DNA of 64,000 nt from Geodermatophilus poikilotrophus (GTDB taxonomy: Bacteria > Actinomycetota > Actinomycetes > Mycobacteriales > Geodermatophilaceae), in NCBI RefSeq assembly GCF_900111455.1, contig NZ_FOIE01000007.1:246959-310958 (forward strand), in the 5' to 3' direction. Below are positions 23,464-35,108 of the stretch, one piece after another. Positions within the stretch are counted from its first letter, which is position 1. Every line of letters begins with the position of its first letter. The notes under the pieces are model-generated. The model worked only from the letters and a program-made list of their open reading frames with translations. It made no database searches and was not told where the DNA came from. Position numbers and translations under genes: made by a program.

Positions 23464-24363
23464 TCAGCAGAAGCCGGGGGTCCCCAGCCACGCGACCTCC
23501 GCGGGTGGGACGTCGTCGCGCAGCACGGTGCCCTCGATCAGCCCGTAGGGCCGGTCCGCGGCGGAGTAGACGACGTCGGGGTTGTCCAGCCCGAACGCCG
23601 AGAGGTCCTGCAGGACGTGGTGCCTGTTGGGCAGGGACAGCCGCACCTCGGCGACGTCGGGGCAGCGCTCCAGCACCGCCTCGCCCATCGCGTAGAGGGT
23701 CTGCTGCAGCGCCAGGGAGTGCGTGCCGGCGAAGGTCTCCAGCAGCGTCGTCCGGACGACGTCGTACGTCGCGTCCCAGTCCAGGTCGGTGCCCGTGCAG
23801 CGCCAGCGGGCGGTGACCGCGGTGGCCAGGATGCGCTCGCGGGTCTCGGCGAGGGTGGTGTACCGGTCGCGCGGGAAGCCCCGGAACTCCGAGCCGGTGG
23901 TCTTGAGGACGACGAGGTCGCGCAGCCCGGCGAGCACGTGCGCGTCGTCCCCGTCCACCGTGACCACCGCCGTCCGCACCTCGCCGCCGTCGCGGCGGAA
24001 GGCGTGCTCGTGCGGCTGCCCGCCGACGGCGATGCGGTCCCACCCGAACGAGTCGACCGCGACCCGGGCGCCGGTGATCCAGTCGTAGGCGCCGGCGAAG
24101 TGGCGGGCCAGTCGCAGGGCGAACGCCTCGGGTGACCCGACGCCGTCGCGGGCGAACGCGAACACGGTGTTCTTCTGGGTGTCGGTCGCCAGCACGTGCG
24201 CGTTGTCGCCCGCCGTGTGCGCGGCGGCGAAGTCCCCGCGCAGGCTGCTGCTGACGTCCAGGTCGACCAGGGTGTGCCGCGGGCTGCTGCGGTCGACCGC
24301 CACCACGCGGACCTCCGCCTTGCCGTACTGGTTGGGGCCGAGCCGGATCGCCATGCGCGGCAC
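23464..24363 (-). CDS. uox: Urate oxidase (uricase)
   Basis: 299 residues, cofactor-free T-fold tandem. It oxidises urate to 5-hydroxyisourate. Catalytic elements are seen: GKAEVRVV (Lys), LATDTQKNTVFAFA (Thr), LPNRHHV (His), plus the substrate loop TTGSEFRGFPRDRYTTL. Either of two Met codons (24363 or 24355) could start it. It is the last gene of the uraD-uraH-uox operon, 34 bp after uraH. Confidence 0.96.
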   Translation of the reverse strand: MPRMAIRLGPNQYGKAEVRVVAVDRSSPRHTLVDLDVSSSLRGDFAAAHTAGDNAHVLATDTQKNTVFAFARDGVGSPEAFALRLARHFAGAYDWITGARVAVDSFGWDRIAVGGQPHEHAFRRDGGEVRTAVVTVDGDDAHVLAGLRDLVVLKTTGSEFRGFPRDRYTTLAETRERILATAVTARWRCTGTDLDWDATYDVVRTTLLETFAGTHSLALQQTLYAMGEAVLERCPDVAEVRLSLPNRHHVLQDLSAFGLDNPDVVYSAADRPYGLIEGTVLRDDVPPAEVAWLGTPGFC

Positions 24364-24397
24364 TGTTGCACGTGGAACAGCGCGCCCGGCGGCGCCG

Positions 24398-24715
24398 CTA
24401 GCTGCCCCGGTAGGTCGAGTAGGCGAACGGCGCCAGCAGCAGCGGCACGTGGTGGTGCTCGGCGGGCTCGCGGACGTCGAAGGAGAGCACCACCTCGGGG
24501 TAGAAGGTGTCCCGCCCCTGCCCGGCGAACCACGGACCGGTGGCGAAGACCAGCCGGTGGGCGCACGGCGCGGTCGCCCCCTCGGCCAGCCGGCACCGGC
24601 CGTCGGTGTCGGTGACCCCCTCGGCCACCAGCTCGTCCCCGGCGAGGAGCCGGACGGTCATCCCCGCCGCCGGCCGGCCCAGCACGGAGTCCAGCACGTG
24701 CGTGGACACGCTCAC
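24398..24715 (-). CDS. uraH: 5-Hydroxyisourate hydrolase (transthyretin-like)
   Basis: 105 residues from GTG 24715, overlapping the uraD stop (GTGA). The N-terminal STHVLDSVLGRPA and C-terminal HHHVPLLLAPFAYSTYRGS signatures of HIU hydrolase are both complete, including the terminal Tyr-Arg-Gly-Ser. It acts immediately after uricase. Confidence 0.96.
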   Translation of the reverse strand: MSVSTHVLDSVLGRPAAGMTVRLLAGDELVAEGVTDTDGRCRLAEGATAPCAHRLVFATGPWFAGQGRDTFYPEVVLSFDVREPAEHHHVPLLLAPFAYSTYRGS

Positions 24716-25209
24716 GAGACGAGCTCCCGCACCCGCAGCGCGGTGATCTCGGCCAGCTGACCGGTGACCTCCGCCCGCTCGGTCTCCTCGTCGTTGCCCA
24801 GCCTCCGGCGCAGCTCGGCCAGCAGCTCCTCCGGTGAGCGGCCCGCCGCGCGGACGAGGAAGACCCGGCCGAAGCGCTCCTCGTACTCCCGGTTGCCCTC
24901 GGCCAGCGCGGTGCGCGTCGCGTCGTCCGCCGAGCCCACCGCGCTCTGCTCCCGGCGGGAGGCCGCCGCCTCGGGCGAGGACCCCCCGGGTCGGTCGCCG
25001 ATCCGGGGGTGCACGGCGATCGCCAGCTCGACCTCCTCCCACGGCAGGCCGCGGACGACGTCCTCGGCGCGGGCGACGAGCGCGTCGACGTCCGGGTAGG
25101 GCCGGCCGGCCACCACCTCGGCGGCGAACCGGGGTGCGGCGTTGCACGCTCGCAGGGCCTGGACGGCGCGGTCGGCGGGCTCGGCGTTGAAGTCGTCGAG
25201 GGCACCCAT
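24712..25209 (-). CDS. uraD: OHCU decarboxylase
   Basis: 165 residues. It decarboxylates 2-oxo-4-hydroxy-4-carboxy-5-ureidoimidazoline to S-allantoin, the third step. Signature sequences: FNAEPADRAVQALRACNAAPRF at the start, AVHPRIGDRPGG with the catalytic His, EYEERFGRVFLVRAAGRSPEELL, and LGNDEETE. The gene order uraD-uraH-uox gives the whole conversion of urate to allantoin. Allantoinase is not present here. Confidence 0.95.
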   Translation of the reverse strand: MGALDDFNAEPADRAVQALRACNAAPRFAAEVVAGRPYPDVDALVARAEDVVRGLPWEEVELAIAVHPRIGDRPGGSSPEAAASRREQSAVGSADDATRTALAEGNREYEERFGRVFLVRAAGRSPEELLAELRRRLGNDEETERAEVTGQLAEITALRVRELVS

Positions 25210-25275
25210 GCGACGAGGATGGCAGCCCGTCCGGCGGCCCCCGCGCGGGGACCACCGGCGTGGCAGGGTCGGGGG

Positions 25276-26556
25276 ATGCCGCTGCCGGAGGACGTCTACG
25301 CCGAGCTCGACCGGCGGCTGGCACCCGTCGACGCCGCCCGCGCCGCCGCCTTCCCCGGCGAGCGGACGACGCGGCAGCCGGTGCACACCTGCTACGTGCC
25401 CGCGGACGCCGTCGTCCCGGGCCTCGCCGCCGCCTGGGGCGCCGAGGCGCTGGCCGCGCTCGACGAGCACGGACTCCCCGACCTCGGCCTGGACGGCGGG
25501 CTGCTCGAGGAGGTGCTGCCGCGGGTGCGCGCCAAGCTCGCCGCCGAGCCGGTGGAGGACCTGCGGGTCGACGCCGAGGACGGCTACCGCGGCCCGCCCG
25601 GGCGGGAGGACGACGACGTCCGCCGGGCCGCCGCGGCCGTGGCCGGGGACCTCGCCGCGGGCAGCGCCCCACCGTCGGTCGGCATCCGGGCCAAGTCGCT
25701 GGAGGGTCCCACCCGGCGGCGCGGCGTCCGCTCCCTGGACCTCTTCCTCGGCGGCCTGTCCCCCGGTGACGTCGCCCCGCACGCGCGGGCGGCGACGGTC
25801 ACGCTGCCCAAGGTGACCGACGTCGAGCAGGTGCGGGCGTTCCTGCCGGTGCTGGACGCGCTGGAGGCCGAGCACGGCGTCGTCCTCGCCCTGGAGCTGC
25901 AGGTCGAGACCCCGCAGGCCGTCGTGGGTCCCGACGGCGCGGTGGCCGCCGCCCGGCTGGTGCACGCGGCCGGACCCCGGCTGACCGGTCTGCACTCCGG
26001 GACCTACGACTACAGCGCCGCCCTCGGCATCGCCGCGGCCCACCAGTCCTCCGACCACCCGGCGCTCGACCTCGCCAAGCAGCTCCTGCAGGTCGCCGTC
26101 GCCGGCACCGGGGCCGTGGCGGTCGACGGCTCGACCAACGTGCTGCCCGCGGGCGACCGCGACGCGGTGCACGCGGCCTGGCGGCTGCACGCCGGGCTGG
26201 TTCGCCACGCCCTGGAGCGCGGCCTCTACCAGGGCTGGGACCTGCACCCGGCCCAGCTGGTCACCCGCTACGCGGCCACCTACGCCTTCTTCCGCGCGGC
26301 GCTGCCCGCCGCGGCGGCCCGGCTGGCGGCCTACCTGGACCGGGTCGACGGCGGCGTCCTCGACGAGCCGGCCACCGCGAGGGCGCTGGCCACCGTCGTG
26401 CTGCGGGGGCTGGACTGCGGCGCGCTGGACGACGGCGAGGTGCGGACGGCCACCGGTGTCGGGCGCCCCGAGCTGGCGCGGCTGGCCGGGCGCAGCGCGC
26501 GGGTCGACACGTCCGCGACCGGCCCGGGCGACCCTCGACCTACCATCCCCTCGTGA
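25276..26556 (+). CDS. HpcH/HpaI aldolase-like protein (DUF6986-type), next to uricase genes
   Basis: 426 residues from ATG 25276, divergent from uraD with 66 bp between. Long N-terminal part with RVDAEDGYRGPPGREDDDVRRAA, then IRAKSLEGPTRRRGVRSLDLF, an aldolase barrel with LELQVETPQAVVG, GLHSGTYDYSAALGI and a Trp-Asp pair in YQGWDLHPAQLVTRYAATYAFF. The pattern fits the phosphoenolpyruvate/citrate-lyase-like aldolase superfamily, metal dependent. I recall such genes recurring beside ureide genes in actinobacteria but know no proven reaction. Its last four bases overlap the start of the next gene. Confidence 0.75.
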   Translation: MPLPEDVYAELDRRLAPVDAARAAAFPGERTTRQPVHTCYVPADAVVPGLAAAWGAEALAALDEHGLPDLGLDGGLLEEVLPRVRAKLAAEPVEDLRVDAEDGYRGPPGREDDDVRRAAAAVAGDLAAGSAPPSVGIRAKSLEGPTRRRGVRSLDLFLGGLSPGDVAPHARAATVTLPKVTDVEQVRAFLPVLDALEAEHGVVLALELQVETPQAVVGPDGAVAAARLVHAAGPRLTGLHSGTYDYSAALGIAAAHQSSDHPALDLAKQLLQVAVAGTGAVAVDGSTNVLPAGDRDAVHAAWRLHAGLVRHALERGLYQGWDLHPAQLVTRYAATYAFFRAALPAAAARLAAYLDRVDGGVLDEPATARALATVVLRGLDCGALDDGEVRTATGVGRPELARLAGRSARVDTSATGPGDPRPTIPS

Positions 26557-29500
26557 ACGACCAGGACCTCGGCGCGTCGCTGTTCGCCGGCGGCGGCGAG
26601 GTCGGCCGGGCGATGGCCGGGATCGACTGGGCGCAGACCCCGCTCGGCCCGCCGGAGCGGTGGCCCTCCGGGCTGCGGCACACCGTCCGGATCCTGCTCA
26701 CGTCGCGCTTCGCCATGTGGGCCGGCTGGGGCCCGGAGCTCGCCTTCTTCTACAACGACGCCTACCGGCACGACACGCTGCAGACCAAGCACCCCTGGGC
26801 GCTGGGCCGGCCGGCCTCCGAGGTGTGGGCCGAGATCTGGCCGGACATCGCGCCGCGCACCTCGGCGGTGCTCCACGACGGCACCGCCACCTGGGACGAG
26901 GACCTGCTGCTCTTCCTGGAGCGCAGCGGCTACCGGGAGGAGACGTACCACACCTTCTCCTACAGCCCCCTGCCCGACGACGACGGCGGCACCGGCGGCC
27001 TGCTCTGCGTGGTCACCGAGACCACCCAGCAGGTCGTGGGCGAGCGGCGGATGGCCACGCTGCGCGACCTCGCCGCAGCGCTCGGGGCCGCCCGCTCCGA
27101 GCAGACCGTGCTCGCCGCCGCCGGCGAGCAGCTCGCCCGCAACGACGTCGACCTGCCCTTCAGCGCCGTCTACCTGCTCGACGACGACGGGACCGCCCGG
27201 CTGGGCAGCGCGGCCGGCATCGAGCCCGGGTCGGCCGCACTGCCCCGGGTGCTGACCGCCGAGGACGACGCGGTGTGGCCGGTGGCGCGGCTCCTGGCCG
27301 GCGAGGACGTCGTGGTGGCGGACCTCGACCGCCGGTTCCCCGGCCTGCCGACCGGCGCCTGGGAGGTGCCCCCCGTCCAGGCGGCCGCGCTGCCGATCGC
27401 CTCGTCGTCCCAGGACCGCGGCCCGGTCGCCGGCTTCCTCGTGGTCGGCCTCAACCCGCACCGGCGCTGGGACGACGCCTACCGCGGCTTCCTCGGCCTG
27501 GTGGCCAACCAGCTCTCCGCCGCCCTCACCAACGCCGGCAGCTACGAGGCCGAGCGGCGCCGGGCCGAGGCGCTGGCCGAGCTGGACCGCGCCAAGACCG
27601 ACTTCTTCAGCAACGTCAGCCACGAGTTCCGCACCCCCTTGACGCTCATCGCCGGCCCGGTCGCCGAGCTGCGCGCCTCGCCGGTGGCCGCGTCGGACCC
27701 GCGGGTGCGCGAGGAGCTGGAGGTCATCGAGCGCAACGCCCAGCGGCTGGGCAAGCTGGTCAACACCCTGCTGGACTTCTCCCGCATCCAGGCCGGCCGC
27801 ATCGACGCCCGCTTCGAGCCCGTCGACCTCGCCGCCACCACCGCCGAGCTGGCCAGCGTCTTCCGCTCGGCCGTCGCCCGGGCGGGTCTGGAGTTCACCG
27901 TCGACTGCGGCCCGCTGGACGGGCCGGTGCGCGTCGACCGGGACATGTGGGAGAAGGTCGTCCTCAACCTGCTCTCCAACGCGCTGAAGTTCACCTTCAC
28001 CGGCGGCATCGCGGTGCGGCTGCGACAGGACGACGGCTGCGCGCGGCTGAGCGTCACCGACACCGGCACGGGCATCCCCGCCGACGAGCTGCCCCGGCTC
28101 TTCGAGCGGTTCCACCGGGTGGCCGACGCGCGCGGGCGGTCCGGCGAGGGCAGCGGGATCGGCCTGGCCATGGTGCGCGAGCTGGTCGGACTGCACGGCG
28201 GCACCATCGACGTCGACAGCGCCCCCGGCACCGGGACGACGTTCACCGTCACCGTGCCGATGGGCGCCGCCCACCTGCCTGCCGACCGGCTGGCCGAAAC
28301 CGCTCCCGACGCGCCCACCGTGTCCCCGGCCGCCGTCCCCTTCGTCACCGAGGCGCTGCGCTGGCTGCCGGACGGCGACGCCGCCGCCGAGCCGGCGCCG
28401 GCGAGCGCGGGTCCGGCGGTGGTCTCCGGCCGGGTGCTGGTCGCCGACGACAACGCCGACATGCGGGGGTACCTGCTGCGGCTGCTGGGGCCGCACTACG
28501 AGGTCCGGGCGGTCGCCGACGGCCGGCAGGCCCTCGACGCGGCGCTGGCCGACCCGCCGGACCTGGTCGTCAGCGACGTGATGATGCCCGAGCTGGACGG
28601 CATGGGCCTGCTGGCCGCGCTGCGCGCGGAGCCGCGCACCGCCCGGGTCCCGGTGGTGCTGCTGTCGGCGCGGGCCGGCGAGGAGGCCGCCGTCGAGGGC
28701 CTGGCGGCCGGGGCCGACGACTACCTGGTCAAGCCGTTCTCCGCGCAGGAGCTGCTCGCGCGGGTCCGCGCGCACCTGGAGCTGGGCCGGGCCCGGCGGG
28801 CCGCCGAGGAGCAGTTCACCGCGATGGCCGACCTGGCGCCGGCCCTCATCTGGGTCACCGACCCCGACGGACGACGGGTGTTCGTCAACCGCGGCTGGAC
28901 CGAGTTCACCGGCCGCCCGGCCCGCGAGGAGGTCGGGGACGGCTGGGAGCAGGGCCTGCACCCGGACGACCGGGACCGCTACGCCCAGGTCGTCGCCGCG
29001 GCGACCGCGCGCCGGGAGGGCTGGGAGGTCGACGTCCGGCTGCGCCGCGCCGACGGCACCTACCACTGGCTGCTGGAGCGGGCCGTGCCGATCGGGGGCC
29101 AGCCGACCGGGGCGGGCGAGACCCCCGCCGGCTACGTGGGCAGCTGCACCGACATCAACGCCCGGACCCGGGAGACGGCCCGGCAGACCCTGCTGGCCGA
29201 CGTCGGCACCGCGCTGGACCGGGAGACCACCGTCGACGGGCAGCTGGGTGCGCTGGCCCGGCTGCTCGTGGACAGGCGGCTCGCGGACCTCTGCACGGCC
29301 CGCGTGCTGGCGGACGACGGACGGCTGCGCTTCGCCGGGATCGCCGGGCTCCACGGTGCCGCCGAGGCCGCCGTGGCCGACCTCGACCCCGAGTCGGGGC
29401 TCGGCCCCGAGGTGGTGCGCACCGGCCGGACCGTGCTGCGGGCGCAGCTGCCCCAGGTGGCCCCCGACCGCCCGGAGGTCGCGGAGGTCCTGGCCGTCGG

Positions 29501-31679
29501 CCCAGGGATGGCGGTGCCACTGTCCGTCCGCGGCCGGGTCCTCGCCGTCCTCGGGCTCGCCCGGCGTCCGGACGCGCCGCCGTACGACGACGACGACCGG
29601 GTGCTCGTCGAGGAGGTCGCCGGCCGCGCCGCCCTGGCGGTGGACAACGCGCTGCTCCTCGCCGACGAGCGGGCGGCCGCACGACGGCTGGCCCTGCTGC
29701 AACGGGCGACCGCCGAGCTGTCCGCGGCGACCACCCCGCTGGAGGTCGCCCAGGTCGCCGGCGGCCACGTCCGCGCGCTCACCGGCCCGGACAGCCGCGT
29801 CGCGGTCTACGAGCTGGACCCGTCGCACCGGGCGCTGTCCGCGCTGGCTATCGCCGGCGGGAGCCCGGCCGGCCTGGAGGCCTGGCGGACGCTGCCGATG
29901 TCGGCCCCGCTGGTGGCCACGACCGCCGTCACCGAGCGCCGTCCGGTGTGGGTGGAGGACGTCGCCGCGCAGCCCCCGGCCCACCGCGAGCTCGCGCCGG
30001 AGCTGGCCGCGTCGGCGGCGGACTTCGGGCTCGCTGCGGTCGCGGCCCTGCCGCTGTCCGCGGCCGGGCGGGTGGTCGGCGTCCTGTCGATCGCCTGGCC
30101 CGAGGTGCAGCGGTTCTCGGCGACCGACCGGGCGGTGCTGCTCGCCGTCGCCGAGCAGTGCGCGCAGGCCCTCGACCGCGCCCGGCTCTACCGGGCCGAG
30201 CGGGGCATCGCCGAGACGCTGCAGCTGAGCCTGCTGCCGGCGCAGCTGCCCGCACTGGAACGGCTGGCGCTGGCGGCGCACTACCTGCCCGGCGCCGAGG
30301 GCACCCAGGCCGGCGGCGACTGGTACGACGTCGTCGAGCTGGCCGACCACCGGGTGGCGATCGCCGTCGGCGACGTCGTCGGGCAGGGTCCGGCCGCCGC
30401 CGCGGTCATGGGCCAGTTGCGCAGCGCGCTCTCGGCGGCCGTCCTGCAGGGCTGCGGGCCCGCGGAGGCGCTCGAGCTGCTCGACCGCTTCGCCGCCCGG
30501 CTGCCCGGCGCACTGGCCTCCACCGCCGCCTGCCTGGTCGTCGACGGCACGGCCGGCACGGTGCGGTGGGCCCGAGCCGGTCATCCGCCGGCCCTGCTGG
30601 TGACCTCCGACGGGGCGCAGCTGCTCGACGGTGCCGGCTCCGGCGCCGTCCTCGGCGCACCCGGCCGGCGCCCGTACACCGAGGGCACGGTCGAGATCAC
30701 CCCGGGTGCGACGTTGCTGCTCTACACCGACGGGCTGGTCGAGCGCCGCGGCGAGGTCCTCGACGACGGGCTGGAGCGGGTGCGCGCCGCCGCGGCCCGG
30801 CACGCCGCGGCCGACCCGGTCGGGTTGACCGGACGGCTGCTCGCCGAGGTCCTCGCCGGCGCCGACCAGCCCGACGACGTCGCGCTGATCGCCGCCCGGC
30901 TGCTGCCCGCCCCCCTGTCCGCCCGGCTGCCGGCCGACCCCCGGCGGCTGTCCGCGGTCCGGCGGGCCGTGACGGCGTGGACGGCGGCGGCCGGACTGCC
31001 CGACGACACCGCCGAGGACCTGCAGCTGGCGCTGGGTGAGGCGCTGGCCAACGCGGTGGAGCACGCCTACGCGGCGGCCGCCGCCGAGGGCGAGTGCAGC
31101 TACCGGGTGGCCCGCGAGGCCGACGGGAGCGTGCGGGTCGAGGTGCGCGACTCCGGCCTGTGGCGGCCACCGCCGGCCGACCGCGGCTACCGCGGCCGCG
31201 GCCTCGAGCTGATCAGCGCGCTGGCCACCGACGTCGAGGTGGTGCACGTCCCGGAGGTCGCGGGCACGACCGTCCGCTTCCGGGTGGCCCCCGCCGTCCC
31301 CGGCACCCCCGAGGTCCGTCCGCGGCGCGGCACGGTGGGTCCTCCCCTCGACGGGGGCGCCGTGGTGACCGTGCACGACGAGCCGGGCGGGCCGCGCCTG
31401 GAGGTGCACGGCGAGGTGGACCTGGCCACCGCGGGGCGGCTGCGGCGGCAGGTGCTCACCCGGCTCGAGCAGCTCGCCCCGGGGTCGGTCGCGACGCTCG
31501 ACCTCGGGCCGACCGGCTACCTGGCCAGCGCCGGCGTCGGGCTGGTGCTGGAGGCCGTCGCGCGGGCGCGGCGGGCCGGCGTCGAGCTGCGGGTGCTGGC
31601 CCGGCCCGGGACCCCGCCGGCGCGGATCCTCGCCCTGGCGGGGGTCGACGAGCAGGCCTGGGAGGGACTGCAGGCGTGA
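26553..31679 (+). CDS. 1708-residue PAS-GAF-His kinase-REC-PAS-GAF-GAF-SpoIIE-HATPase-STAS fusion
   Basis: Starts at GTG 26553 in a GTGA overlap with the aldolase gene. Domains in order, approximate: PAS 1-170; GAF 178-340; HisKA with FSNVSHEFRTPL, His at 357; HATPase with VLNLLSNALKF and GSGIGLAMVRELV to 570; receiver with LVVSDVMMPELDG, Asp at 675, and the conserved Lys in YLVKPFS, to 750; PAS/PAC 755-872; GAF 885-1030; GAF 1055-1205; SpoIIE phosphatase with GGDWYD near 1254, GDVVGQG, ARAGHPPALL and LLYTDGLVE to 1450; anti-sigma-type HATPase with LALGEALANAVEHAY; STAS 1605-1708 with LEVHGEVDLATAGRLR and GYLASAGVGLV. All catalytic residues look intact. The GDVVGQG replaces the usual GDVxGxG/H with little change. 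It is cytosolic; no membrane segments were seen. Confidence 0.93.
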   Translation: MNDQDLGASLFAGGGEVGRAMAGIDWAQTPLGPPERWPSGLRHTVRILLTSRFAMWAGWGPELAFFYNDAYRHDTLQTKHPWALGRPASEVWAEIWPDIAPRTSAVLHDGTATWDEDLLLFLERSGYREETYHTFSYSPLPDDDGGTGGLLCVVTETTQQVVGERRMATLRDLAAALGAARSEQTVLAAAGEQLARNDVDLPFSAVYLLDDDGTARLGSAAGIEPGSAALPRVLTAEDDAVWPVARLLAGEDVVVADLDRRFPGLPTGAWEVPPVQAAALPIASSSQDRGPVAGFLVVGLNPHRRWDDAYRGFLGLVANQLSAALTNAGSYEAERRRAEALAELDRAKTDFFSNVSHEFRTPLTLIAGPVAELRASPVAASDPRVREELEVIERNAQRLGKLVNTLLDFSRIQAGRIDARFEPVDLAATTAELASVFRSAVARAGLEFTVDCGPLDGPVRVDRDMWEKVVLNLLSNALKFTFTGGIAVRLRQDDGCARLSVTDTGTGIPADELPRLFERFHRVADARGRSGEGSGIGLAMVRELVGLHGGTIDVDSAPGTGTTFTVTVPMGAAHLPADRLAETAPDAPTVSPAAVPFVTEALRWLPDGDAAAEPAPASAGPAVVSGRVLVADDNADMRGYLLRLLGPHYEVRAVADGRQALDAALADPPDLVVSDVMMPELDGMGLLAALRAEPRTARVPVVLLSARAGEEAAVEGLAAGADDYLVKPFSAQELLARVRAHLELGRARRAAEEQFTAMADLAPALIWVTDPDGRRVFVNRGWTEFTGRPAREEVGDGWEQGLHPDDRDRYAQVVAAATARREGWEVDVRLRRADGTYHWLLERAVPIGGQPTGAGETPAGYVGSCTDINARTRETARQTLLADVGTALDRETTVDGQLGALARLLVDRRLADLCTARVLADDGRLRFAGIAGLHGAAEAAVADLDPESGLGPEVVRTGRTVLRAQLPQVAPDRPEVAEVLAVGPGMAVPLSVRGRVLAVLGLARRPDAPPYDDDDRVLVEEVAGRAALAVDNALLLADERAAARRLALLQRATAELSAATTPLEVAQVAGGHVRALTGPDSRVAVYELDPSHRALSALAIAGGSPAGLEAWRTLPMSAPLVATTAVTERRPVWVEDVAAQPPAHRELAPELAASAADFGLAAVAALPLSAAGRVVGVLSIAWPEVQRFSATDRAVLLAVAEQCAQALDRARLYRAERGIAETLQLSLLPAQLPALERLALAAHYLPGAEGTQAGGDWYDVVELADHRVAIAVGDVVGQGPAAAAVMGQLRSALSAAVLQGCGPAEALELLDRFAARLPGALASTAACLVVDGTAGTVRWARAGHPPALLVTSDGAQLLDGAGSGAVLGAPGRRPYTEGTVEITPGATLLLYTDGLVERRGEVLDDGLERVRAAAARHAAADPVGLTGRLLAEVLAGADQPDDVALIAARLLPAPLSARLPADPRRLSAVRRAVTAWTAAAGLPDDTAEDLQLALGEALANAVEHAYAAAAAEGECSYRVAREADGSVRVEVRDSGLWRPPPADRGYRGRGLELISALATDVEVVHVPEVAGTTVRFRVAPAVPGTPEVRPRRGTVGPPLDGGAVVTVHDEPGGPRLEVHGEVDLATAGRLRRQVLTRLEQLAPGSVATLDLGPTGYLASAGVGLVLEAVARARRAGVELRVLARPGTPPARILALAGVDEQAWEGLQA

Positions 31680-31715
31680 CGGCGCGCACAGTGGGCACCC
31701 CCTGGGTGATCGGGG

Positions 31716-32780
31716 GTGGGCGTGGACGAGGATGACGCGGCACCCGGCCTGAGCTCTCGGCCGGAGGGAGGACCGGACGAGGTGGACCGAGCGGTGGGCG
31801 AGGCCCGGGCGCCGCTGCCGCACCCGGGGAGCGGCGCGGGGTCCCCGGTCCCGTCGCGGCACTCCGCCGCGGTGGTGCGCGGGGAGGCCGACCTGCTGGC
31901 CGTGGCCCTGCCCTTCCTCGACGCCGGGCTGCGCGCCGGGGACGTCGTCGCGCTGACCTGCCCGCCCGACATCGCGGCGCTGCTCTGCGGCGAGCTCGGT
32001 GAGCGCGCCGGGCAGGTCCGCGACGACCCGCGGCTGAGCCTGCTCGGTGCCCGGGCGCCCGACGCGCTGGCCCACGCCCGGCGGACCGCCGAGCAGGCGG
32101 GGGACCGGCAGCTGCGCGTCCTCTCCCTCGTGGACTTCGGGCCCACCCCGGCCGGCTGGCGCGAGGGGGTGCGGTTCGAGTCGGCGGCCAACCGGGTCGT
32201 GCAGGACATGGCGGTCGACGCCCTGTGCCTCTACGACCGGCGCCGGCTGCCCGCGGAGGTCGTCGAGACCGCCGCCGCCACCCACCCGTTCCTGGTCGTC
32301 GACGGTGCCTGGGGGCCGAGCCCGGCCTACCGCGACCCGGTGGAGTACCTGCCCCGGCTGCCGTGGCCGCGGGAGCCGGTCCAGGACACCGCACCGGTGC
32401 TCGCCCTCGACGACGTCCCCACGCTGGTGGCGCTGCGTCACGCGATCGGCCGGGTCCTCGCCGCCCGGGTGCCCGACCGCGACCAGCGGGAGGACCTGCA
32501 CCTGGCCGCCGCCGAGGTCGCCGCCAACGCCTTCCGGCACGGCGTCCGCCCGGTGTCGGTGCGGATGTGGACCGACGGCGAGCGGCTGGTCTGCGCCATC
32601 ACCGACTGCGGGCACTCCTTCGGCGACCCGCTGGCCGGGTTCCGGCCCGCCCACGGCGCCGACCTCGCCCGTGGCGGCATGGGCCTGTGGCTGGCCCGCA
32701 AGCTCTGGGACTCCGTCGACCTGGTCCCCGGCCCCGAGGGGCTCACCGTCCGGCTCAGCACCCGCCTGCAGCCTGCTTGA
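31716..32780 (+). CDS. MEDS-HATPase regulator (RsbA-type anti-sigma regulatory protein)
   Basis: 354 residues from GTG 31716; GTG 31782, with GGAGGGAGG ten bases before it, may be the true start and removes a disordered 22-residue leader. Residues 45-210 are a MEDS sensor domain (RHSAAVVRGEADLLAVALPFLDAGL, VVALTCPP, PVEYLPRLPW). Residues 225-354 are an HATPase_c (LHLAAAEVAANAFRHG, ITDCGHSFGDPL, GGMGLWLARKLWD). MEDS proteins sense methanogen/methylotroph-type cofactors or other ligands and pass it to a sigma switch. It follows the fusion sensor by 36 bp. Confidence 0.88.
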   Translation: MGVDEDDAAPGLSSRPEGGPDEVDRAVGEARAPLPHPGSGAGSPVPSRHSAAVVRGEADLLAVALPFLDAGLRAGDVVALTCPPDIAALLCGELGERAGQVRDDPRLSLLGARAPDALAHARRTAEQAGDRQLRVLSLVDFGPTPAGWREGVRFESAANRVVQDMAVDALCLYDRRRLPAEVVETAAATHPFLVVDGAWGPSPAYRDPVEYLPRLPWPREPVQDTAPVLALDDVPTLVALRHAIGRVLAARVPDRDQREDLHLAAAEVAANAFRHGVRPVSVRMWTDGERLVCAITDCGHSFGDPLAGFRPAHGADLARGGMGLWLARKLWDSVDLVPGPEGLTVRLSTRLQPA

Positions 32781-33442: not shown

Positions 33443-34513
33443 TCAGGTCAGTGCGGGTACGTCGTCCGGGGCGAGGTCGGGGCGGACCCGCACGAAGCGC
33501 AGCGGGTGGCGGAAGACGCCGGCCTGCAGCGCGGCGTCCGCGCTGACCTCGACGACGACGTCCGGGCGGACGCGGGTCAGCGGCACCGACAGCCGGCCGC
33601 CGCCGAAGGCGCCGGTGCCGATCCGCTCCGGCCACGGGTGGTCCGGCCCGGCCGGGGTGAGGACGGCGGTCAGCTCGGCGGACTGCGCGGGCGACAGCGG
33701 GCTGGTCCGGCCGACGACGACCAGCTCGCCGTCCCGGTACCGCCCGGCCACGAGCTGGCTCGGCCGCTCCAGCGGTCCGATGACGCCGCCGGCGAGCACC
33801 TCGGTGGTCTCCCAGGACTTCACCTTCAGCCACTCCCGCCGGCCGGGCGCGTAGCGGGTCCCGGCGCCCTTGGCGACCAGCCCCTCCACCCCGGCGGGCC
33901 GGAAGTCGGCCGACCACTGCCGGGCCTCGGCGGGGTCGGCGGTGACCGGTGAGAGCTGCATCGGCGGGGCCCACCGGGCGGCGAGGTCCTCCAGCGCGGC
34001 CCGCCGCTCCCGCAGCCGGCGCGCGCGCAGGTCCGCGCCGCCCAGCGCCAGCAGGTCGAAGGCGACGTAGGAGGCGGGCGCGGCGGCGACCAGCGCACCG
34101 ATCCGGCCGGCGGTGGCGACCATCCGCTGCTGGAGCAGCCCGAAGTCCAGCCGGGAGCCGTTCCAGACGACGACCTCGCCGTCGAGCACCGTGCCCGCGG
34201 GCACCTGGGCCACGGCCGCGGCGACGACGTCCGGGAACCGGGAGGACAGGTCGCGGCCCTGCCGGGACCAGACCCGGGTCGTGCCGCCGGTGCGGACGAC
34301 GACCAGGCGGTAGCCGTCCCACTTGGGCTCGTAGAGCACCCCGCCGGGCAGCGCGTCGGCCCGCGGCAGGTCGCGCACCGGCTTGGCCAGCTCCACCGCG
34401 ACCGGGCCGGCCAGCTCGGGCGGCACGTCGGGCAGGCCGGGCACGGACAGCGGCACGACGGACAGCCTGGGGGCTGCCGGGCGCCCGCGCGGGTCGCTGA
34501 GCTGCCGGTTCAC
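33443..34513 (-). CDS. ligC: ATP-dependent DNA ligase (LigC-like)
   Basis: 356 residues from GTG 34513; GTG about 57 bp inward is an alternative. The adenylation domain has the active-site Lys at about residue 64 in LYEPKWDGYRLVV, TVLDGEVVVWNG, YVAFDLLALGG, GVEGLVAKGAGTRYAPGRREWLKVKSWET, and an OB-fold C-terminal region. It seals nicks with ATP; in actinobacteria this family supports base excision or short-patch repair. No Ku or polymerase partner is in the window. Confidence 0.9.
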   Translation of the reverse strand: MNRQLSDPRGRPAAPRLSVVPLSVPGLPDVPPELAGPVAVELAKPVRDLPRADALPGGVLYEPKWDGYRLVVVRTGGTTRVWSRQGRDLSSRFPDVVAAAVAQVPAGTVLDGEVVVWNGSRLDFGLLQQRMVATAGRIGALVAAAPASYVAFDLLALGGADLRARRLRERRAALEDLAARWAPPMQLSPVTADPAEARQWSADFRPAGVEGLVAKGAGTRYAPGRREWLKVKSWETTEVLAGGVIGPLERPSQLVAGRYRDGELVVVGRTSPLSPAQSAELTAVLTPAGPDHPWPERIGTGAFGGGRLSVPLTRVRPDVVVEVSADAALQAGVFRHPLRFVRVRPDLAPDDVPALT

Positions 34514-34619
34514 CCCTTCGGGGCACGTCGCCACGCTCCGCGAGGAGGCCGAGGTACCCGCACGAGCGGTGCCGGAGGTCAAGGCACGATCCGGCAACGG
34601 CGGGGTACCAAGGAGGGTG

Positions 34620-35108
34620 ATGACCGAGCGCAAGCCCCCGGGGATGTCCTTCGAGACCTGGATCGACCACCAGATCACCCAGGCGCAGGAGCGCGGGGCG
34701 TTCGAGGGGCTCGAGGGCACCGGCCGCCCGCTGCCCCGGCGGGACAGGGAGCAGACCAGCTACGAGTGGGCGCTGGAGTGGGCACGCCGCCAGCAGGCCG
34801 ACCCCAAGGACATGCTGCCGCCGGGCATGGCGCTGCGCCGCGAGCGCGAGGACCTGGCGCTGCGGGTGCCGCAGCTGCCCAGCGAGGCCGCGGTCCGGGC
34901 GACGGTGGCGGATCTCAACGCCCGGGTGGAGCAGCACTGGCGGCGTCCGCAGGACGGGCCGGACGCCGTCCCCGGGCTGGCCGACGAGGACGCCCTCGTG
35001 CGGCTCTGGCAGGCCACCCGCCCGCCGCCGTCCCTCCCCGAGCCGGTCGTCCCGCCGGCGCCCCCGCGGTCCCGCTGGTGGCACCGCCTCCGTTCGCCGC
35101 GGGCGTAG
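34620..35108 (+). CDS. DUF1992 (DnaJ-C28-like) domain protein
   Basis: 162 residues from ATG 34620, in an AGGAGGGTGATG context. The first 100 residues carry the conserved pattern MSFETWIDHQITQAQERGAFEGLEGTGRPLP, followed by an alpha-helical Arg/Ala-rich region and a proline-rich tail PPPSLPEPVVPPAPP. The function of the family is not known. It is divergent from the ligase. Confidence 0.82.
   Translation: MTERKPPGMSFETWIDHQITQAQERGAFEGLEGTGRPLPRRDREQTSYEWALEWARRQQADPKDMLPPGMALRREREDLALRVPQLPSEAAVRATVADLNARVEQHWRRPQDGPDAVPGLADEDALVRLWQATRPPPSLPEPVVPPAPPRSRWWHRLRSPRA

Follow-up and report, generated by a model that had tools for sequence, protein, structure and literature searches.

A conserved protein of Geodermatophilus poikilotrophus that joins a hybrid histidine kinase to SpoIIE phosphatase, RsbW-type kinase and STAS domains

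Introduction

Rv1364c of Mycobacterium tuberculosis is a protein of about 650 residues, and CrsR of Shewanella has a receiver domain. Rv1364c carries PAS, phosphatase, kinase and STAS domains in one protein, and is reported to phosphorylate and dephosphorylate its own STAS domain at Ser600 and to interact with SigF in vitro (PMC10950880). In HsbR of Pseudomonas a receiver, a PP2C phosphatase and a kinase/anti-sigma domain share one chain, which controls RpoS and a STAS antagonist; receiver phosphorylation is said to favour the phosphatase (PMC6482189). CrsR, which binds RpoS, combines a phosphatase with an anti-sigma domain (PMC6482189). In the RsfSR system of Mycobacterium smegmatis, a histidine kinase acts on a receiver-PP2C phosphatase, which in turn acts on the STAS antagonist RsfB; RsfR that had been preincubated with RsfS and ATP dephosphorylated RsfB more slowly (PMC10950880). 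Campylobacterota have bifunctional PP2C/serine kinase fusions with an N-terminal receiver and a proposed STAS target (PMC9239204), and SypE of Vibrio fischeri is a dual serine kinase and phosphatase for the STAS protein SypA (PMC8256260). Coiled-coil linkers connect PPM phosphatases to PAS, GAF or receiver domains and pass the signals on (PMC12143880).

Here we describe a gene from Geodermatophilus poikilotrophus, located in a 64,000-nucleotide stretch of DNA (the window), whose product (the window protein) has the domain order PAS-GAF-HisKA-HATPase-REC-PAS-GAF-GAF-SpoIIE-HATPase_c_2-STAS in one chain. It is a new and conserved combination of known modules. As in Rv1364c, SpoIIE, HATPase_c_2 and STAS domains follow one another in that order in a single chain, with an acceptor serine in the STAS domain, and Rv1364c (3ke6) is the best PDB match to the SpoIIE-HATPase part (residues 1230-1574, 345 residues, E 1.4e-46). 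SypE differs from the window protein in domain order and in the position of its receiver. Unlike the window protein, Rv1364c has no histidine kinase or receiver among the domains listed for it (PMC10950880). Like HsbR and CrsR, the window protein unites receiver, SpoIIE and HATPase domains in a single chain, and it may work as they do, yet we do not class it as one of them: the histidine kinase and the STAS antagonists HsbA and CrsA are described as separate there, whereas both are fused here (PMC6482189). RsfSR, as described, consists of two proteins plus a separate RsfB and RsbW, and has neither a fused kinase nor a fused STAS domain (PMC10950880); the Campylobacterota fusions also differ from the window protein in having a separate histidine kinase and a separate STAS protein (PMC9239204), and the SypE-SypA pair in its separate STAS protein (PMC8256260). 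A first-pass annotation of the gene held that such parts are normally three to five separate proteins, which is too strong given the multi-domain Rv1364c and HsbR (PMC10950880, PMC6482189). Among the open-access literature matches listed, we recognised no description of a protein in which SpoIIE, HATPase and STAS domains are joined to a hybrid histidine kinase.

Results

The gene for this hybrid sensor kinase/SpoIIE phosphatase/HATPase/STAS protein, identified by its frame and its Pfam matches, occupies 26553-31679 on the forward strand, as do all the features given below unless marked otherwise. It starts with GTG, is open throughout and encodes 1708 residues, and the stop-to-stop frame around it (25770-31679) has GC fractions of 0.84, 0.58 and 0.92 at the three codon positions, a coding-type pattern. 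An antisense frame of 2107 codons (26331-32654, reverse strand) is also open across the whole gene, an expected by-product of the very high GC content. HisKA, HATPase_c, REC, second PAS, GAF, SpoIIE, HATPase_c_2 and STAS_2 matches each exceed the curated Pfam cut-off, and the two first domains were obtained by searching the N-terminal part separately. These are the N-terminal PAS domain at 26751-27035 (residues 67-161; PAS_4, E 2.3e-6) and the first GAF domain at 27090-27527 (GAF_2, E 3.1e-8). They are followed by HisKA at 27591-27797 (residues 347-415), the HATPase_c domain of the histidine kinase at 27936-28262 (residues 462-570) and the receiver at 28434-28769 (residues 628-739). The second sensor region comprises a PAS domain at 28833-29168 (PAS_4/PAS_3, residues 761-872), a second GAF domain at 29307-29648 (GAF_3, best stretch 919-1032) and a third at 29736-30176 (GAF_2, best stretch 1062-1208). 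A linker (residues 1209-1240; 30177-30272) leads to the SpoIIE-type PPM/PP2C phosphatase at 30318-30902, which takes in Asp1256 ahead of the Pfam match at residues 1265-1450. The HATPase_c_2 domain of the RsbW/anti-sigma kinase type lies at 30927-31283 (residues 1459-1577) and the STAS antagonist domain at 31398-31649 (STAS_2, residues 1616-1699).

In a scan of the genome collection the best 80 matches were kept, giving 78 loci, so that the locus counts below do not measure prevalence. The nearest relative among the matches listed is from Geodermatophilus obscurus (L021), with 93% identity in the best segment. Twenty-nine of the listed loci encode the chain with its STAS domain (class A): 18 from Geodermatophilaceae, 6 from Actinomycetospora and 5 from Pseudonocardia. 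In one of them, L024, the contig ends before the STAS domain, and this locus is excluded from the STAS and RsbA counts. All 11 domain blocks were found in one frame by single-sequence search in 25 of the 29, while one or more sensor blocks were undetected in L037, L045 and L083. A further 20 listed loci encode the same chain without STAS (class B), and these are mycobacterial (14), from Actinomadura (3) or from Streptomyces, Catenulispora and Kutzneria (1 each); as in the window protein, hybrid kinase, REC, sensors, SpoIIE and HATPase_c_2 form one chain in the three that were scanned with Pfam, and in contrast to it their STAS is separate. L050 (Kutzneria sp. 744) was excluded from class B, having the front and a downstream STAS-like frame and no SpoIIE in the main frame. 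The other 28 listed loci have the PAS-GAF-HK-REC front with no SpoIIE match in the same frame, and 24 of these have a second histidine-kinase block. Since the front is common to loci with and without SpoIIE, it is a widely distributed module whose outputs can be exchanged. A quick tree built from the front half places 29 of 30 class-A rows in one group (support 89) and 19 of 20 class-B rows in another (support 100); the rows of L083 and Kutzneria are long and their placement is unsure.

Across samples of decreasing relatedness, all 16 genomes sampled from the genus, own genome included, have the SpoIIE-HATPase-STAS part, 15 of them within a single frame of 1693 codons or more and the remaining one split across contig ends. 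The part was present in 10 of 38 genomes and 3 of 12 genera in the family sample (E 1e-100). The class sample gave 1 genome of 98, the own genome, at E 1e-75; with this strict cut-off, and no more than 17 candidates scored in any genome, class B would be missed. The great length of the gene, and the long antisense frame as a sign of permissive GC-rich DNA, might suggest that a sequencing error or misassembly had produced a false fusion or a chance frame. Against this stand the class-A type frames in 29 of the listed loci, the recurrence of the back part in all of the genus sample, and dN/dS values (Nei-Gojobori, four close pairs) below 1 in every block of all four pairs. We reject an artefact on these grounds and consider its probability negligible.

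The key residues of the histidine kinase and receiver are present (H357; N476; D632/D633, D675, S705, K727), with phospho-acceptors His357 (codon 27621-27623) and Asp675 (codon 28575-28577), so the protein has the HisKA histidine, HATPase boxes, receiver aspartate, acid pocket and lysine of a hybrid histidine kinase. Also present are D1256, D1274, D1393 and D1441/D1442 in SpoIIE, which we take to be the metal-binding aspartates of this SpoIIE/PPM phosphatase, E1496, N1500 and D1533 in HATPase_c_2, and the STAS acceptor S1659 (codon 31527-31529); the roles of all these residues, from H357 to S1659, are those that we presume for the window protein. In PDB alignments S1659 coincides with the phosphoserine of SpoIIAA, Ser58, which is present as Ser in structure 1th8 and replaced by Ala in 1tid. 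The preceding position is Ala in the window protein, as against Asp in SpoIIAA and Gly in the solved antagonist RsfB, and across the fused STAS rows it is Ala or Pro, with Ser in one row and never Asp. Every class-A row that extends far enough (30 rows including the window protein, one of which ends before HATPase_c_2) retains the HisKA histidine, the acid pocket, aspartate and lysine of the receiver, the Asp motifs of SpoIIE and the N box of HATPase_c_2. Apart from the absent STAS domain, acceptor and catalytic motifs are likewise kept in the 20 class-B rows. Pfam and the residue check thus confirm the domain set, with apparent active residues, that the first-pass annotation had listed. It had named two findings that would count against a switch, and both were looked for. 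The phosphorylatable STAS residue is in place, Ser1659 being unchanged in each of the 29 rows that extend into the domain, and the HATPase_c_2 appears intact, with the Glu and Asn of the N box, the Asp-x-Gly of G1 and the Gly of G2 kept in 29 class-A rows (window protein included) and 20 class-B rows. A degenerate STAS domain and a dead HATPase are accordingly rejected, at the level of sequence, and the window protein is probably a working one.

Constraint differs between blocks. The linker between the third GAF domain and SpoIIE has the lowest dN/dS of all (0 to 0.11), with 10 of its 32 columns invariant, and is under strong constraint; by analogy with the linkers of other PPM phosphatases we propose it as a coiled-coil or switch element. 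SpoIIE has values of 0.06 to 0.17, and HisKA is low in three of the four pairs. Higher values are seen in HATPase_c_2 (0.26 to 0.51), in STAS (0.39 to 0.47), and in PAS1, GAF1, GAF2 and the variable linkers. Mean identities are 0.81 for HisKA, 0.84 for REC and 0.74 for SpoIIE, compared with 0.67 for HATPase_c_2 and 0.53 for STAS. Only 5 of 95 STAS columns are invariant over 29 rows (residues 1623, 1659, 1660, 1661 and 1691).

The front sensor appears to have a different history in some Geodermatophilus rows, as read from percent identities. Over sensor residues 1-340, L043 and the window protein are 45% identical; over the rest the values are 89% (345-745), 79% (746-1040), 90% (1041-1240), 91% (1241-1577) and 80% (STAS), with the break near residues 320-345, just ahead of His357. 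The L043 sensor is 63% identical to that of L034, which in turn differs from L040 (57% in the sensor, 89% in HK-REC). Over 171 pairs from 19 Geodermatophilaceae rows, the median drop in identity from HK-REC to sensor is 0.11, and among the 22 pairs listed with the largest drops every one involves L043 or L034. Compared with L026 and L039, the window protein shows a further fall in identity, located in GAF2. The PAS-GAF sensors of L043, L034 and L040 look as though input modules had been exchanged naturally between related Geodermatophilus species where the sensor meets the kinase; rapid divergence of the sensor is the alternative. Such an exchange, placed just before the phospho-histidine, supports input through the histidine kinase.

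A separate STAS frame lies directly downstream in all 20 listed class-B loci, its match beginning 27-65 nt beyond the final sense codon of the main frame, and each has an acceptor-type serine by eye. Additional STAS matches are found upstream (14, in 12 of the 20 loci) and further downstream (4). Since the training set of the STAS profile comprised the fused domains plus five free-STAS clusters taken from these loci, matches to the five clusters hold by construction; the remaining class-B matches do not. A STAS partner is common to both classes, and fusion is one solution and no requirement. In a STAS tree of little resolution (69 rows, 105 columns), the fused domains form their own group (96/91) and are not nested in the class-B downstream STAS, so direct descent of the fused form from the latter is unsupported. 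Split and fused forms are thus equivalent in place, and identity as the same gene goes beyond this evidence. An internal start that would yield free STAS from the same mRNA is also unsupported in the 29 rows examined: a candidate GTG (valine), 18 codons before the end of the examined stretch, occurs in 18 rows, a Shine-Dalgarno-like match precedes it in one row only (L032), and the surrounding linker is variable.

Directly downstream, starting 36 nt after the gene, is an RsbA-family gene with a MEDS sensor and HATPase_c_2 (31716-32780), identified by NCBIfam NF041045 (222.8 bits, cut-off 210), Pfam and synteny. Each of the 17 readable Geodermatophilaceae loci among the matches listed has a gene of this type as its next gene downstream, and the product is therefore a likely trans partner in this family. 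MEDS matches occur upstream in 2 of 5 Pseudonocardia loci, with none in the fetched flank of the other 3 or of the 6 Actinomycetospora loci, and in 1 of 20 class-B loci (L061, weak). Two genes join MEDS to a STAS-like end: L048:3089-3940, near a class-A gene, as judged by eye, and L061:7480-8580 (reverse strand), near a class-B gene, from weak profile matches. A gene of about 277 codons that follows RsbA in 8 loci has the right size for a sigma factor and was rejected as one, being NAD(P)-binding and NmrA-like by eye. No sigma factor was found among the nine scanned window neighbours, and none of the 8 own-genome matches to the SigB/F/G model, one of them above cut-off, lies on the window contig.

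In the own genome as a whole, partner-switch parts are numerous: the RsbA model has 21 matches (4 above cut-off), and of 51 own-genome matches found in a separate scan, 18, window gene included, reach the SpoIIE region. The above-cut-off SigF-type gene, on another contig, adjoins an Rv1364c-like protein and a frame that we call RsbW-like by eye and from its position, the RsbA model matching it weakly (E 5.1e-5). In this locus (L105:3117-6780) the Rv1364c-like protein is divergent from the RsbW-like and sigF frames, the latter with a long acidic N-terminal extension. The Rv1364c-like protein (L105:3117-4973) has SpoIIE, HATPase_c_2 and STAS in one chain, as has the window protein, and differs in lacking the histidine kinase-receiver part. 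In another paralogue (L106:2333-5185) a PAS-GAF-HK-REC front is fused to a HATPase_c_2-like end with no phosphatase or STAS match; judged by its domains, it reads as a hybrid kinase with an anti-sigma-like end.

Genes around the loci were called from codon-position GC, which missed some of them. Upstream of the window gene, a DUF6986 gene (25276-26556) overlaps the GTG start by 4 nt; its adjacency is not general in relatives, and it is probably outside the system. It belongs with uricase and OHCU decarboxylase genes to what is probably a urate breakdown cluster (23467-26556). Genes of the DNA-repair type lie near the system in two lineages, an example in the window being 33446-34720 (reverse strand). 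Of the 18 Geodermatophilaceae loci, 16 have an ATP-dependent DNA ligase gene some 1.7 to 3.2 kb downstream (the flanks of L021 and L024 being short), and 5 of the 20 class-B loci (L051, L054, L058, L060, L064) have a LigD primase-polymerase gene that is convergent to the system. Three proteins of this kind were confirmed with Pfam, and their proximity could be chance. In seven class-B loci (L054, L055, L058, L060, L062, L064, L067) a gene of upstream cluster c7, PAS plus ANTAR by eye, adjoins the upstream STAS gene.

Discussion

The reading that we favour, with moderate confidence, is a partner switch driven by a phosphorelay, in which an Rv1364c-like phosphatase-kinase-STAS unit stands under an on-board hybrid histidine kinase. 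The known parts (Rv1364c, RsfR, HsbR and PPM linkers), together with the conserved linker, make relay gating the best reading. The switch is further supported by the retained acceptor and catalytic motifs, the invariance of Ser1659 in a variable domain, the match to Rv1364c, the separate STAS frame beside each class-B chain, the sensors that look exchanged and the RsbA neighbour. The exchangeable PAS-GAF sensor would set autophosphorylation of His357, and the phosphate would pass to Asp675 of the on-board receiver. Receiver state and the PAS-GAF-GAF sensors would then act through helical linkers on the SpoIIE phosphatase. This enzyme and the RsbW-like HATPase would have opposing effects on the phosphorylation of Ser1659 in the attached STAS domain. 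Dephosphorylated STAS would bind a HATPase anti-sigma module, either its own (across a dimer) or that of the neighbouring RsbA protein, and a sigma factor or other target would be freed. The phosphotransfers, the sign of the gating and the target are what we infer for the window protein. Receiver phosphorylation has opposite effects in RsfR and HsbR, so no sign can be assigned here, and with some 500 residues between REC and SpoIIE the gating may be loose. Also counting against this reading are the Ala or Pro where SpoIIAA has Asp ahead of the serine, the lower mean identities of HATPase_c_2 and STAS, the lack of a sigma gene among the scanned neighbours and the separate grouping of the fused STAS domains.

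Several other arrangements of the same parts have to be weighed. The receiver may serve as a phosphate sink or kinase feedback without gating anything, the second PAS and two GAF domains controlling the phosphatase directly, as is suggested by the attached receiver of Bacillus cereus RsbK, termed inhibitory in the title of a study (PMC4574943), and by several own-genome matches that span the GAF-SpoIIE part of the query alone (e.g. L003, L011). Such an arrangement fits poorly with HisKA, HATPase_c and REC being among the most conserved blocks, with a front sensor that looks exchanged at the HisKA boundary while the remaining chain is kept, and with RsfSR, where receiver phosphorylation is reported to change PP2C activity (PMC10950880), and we regard it as unlikely. 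Less probable still is that SpoIIE and HATPase_c_2 act mainly on STAS proteins made elsewhere, the attached domain being a dock or scaffold. The separate STAS of every class-B locus, the further upstream STAS in 12 of them and the wealth of partner-switch parts in the own genome speak for it, but a mere dock need not retain an acceptor serine, and the invariance of Ser1659 and the Ala-Gly that follows it, in a domain most of which is variable, counts against it.

The alternative that we rate highest, though still below even, is that the on-board HATPase is a kinase only and that the downstream RsbA protein is the true anti-sigma factor, with the fused STAS domain as its antagonist. The constant RsbA gene of the readable Geodermatophilaceae loci and the upstream MEDS match in two Pseudonocardia loci agree with this; the Actinomycetospora and the other three Pseudonocardia loci, with no MEDS in the flank, and class B, with its single weak match, do not, although a partner there could be unlinked. 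The same evidence bears on the first-pass proposal of a self-contained switch. Its core, a phosphatase-kinase-STAS unit under receiver control, appears well founded as far as sequence can tell. The one-protein circuit is the weaker part, given the separate STAS in class B, the RsbA neighbour, and a window contig on which neither the scanned neighbours nor the SigB/F/G matches supply a sigma factor, the one match above cut-off having an RsbW-like frame and an Rv1364c-like protein beside it, and a fully self-contained circuit is probably not the case. That one chain holds the complete circuit, with sensing, His-Asp relay and serine switch on its own antagonist, the aspartate setting the serine within a dimer and front sensors exchanged as plug-ins between species, is a doubtful prospect, a little less probable than the RsbA arrangement.

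If the switch is relay-gated, as we favour, His-Asp relay and Ser/Thr partner switching would be joined in one molecule at fixed stoichiometry, and receiver control of a PPM phosphatase through PAS/GAF linkers could be measured with one purified protein. Ready-made comparisons are offered by STAS domains that are either separate or fused and by sensors that have diverged in nature. The Geodermatophilaceae are known as stress-tolerant bacteria, and this protein may show how the stress response is wired in the family.
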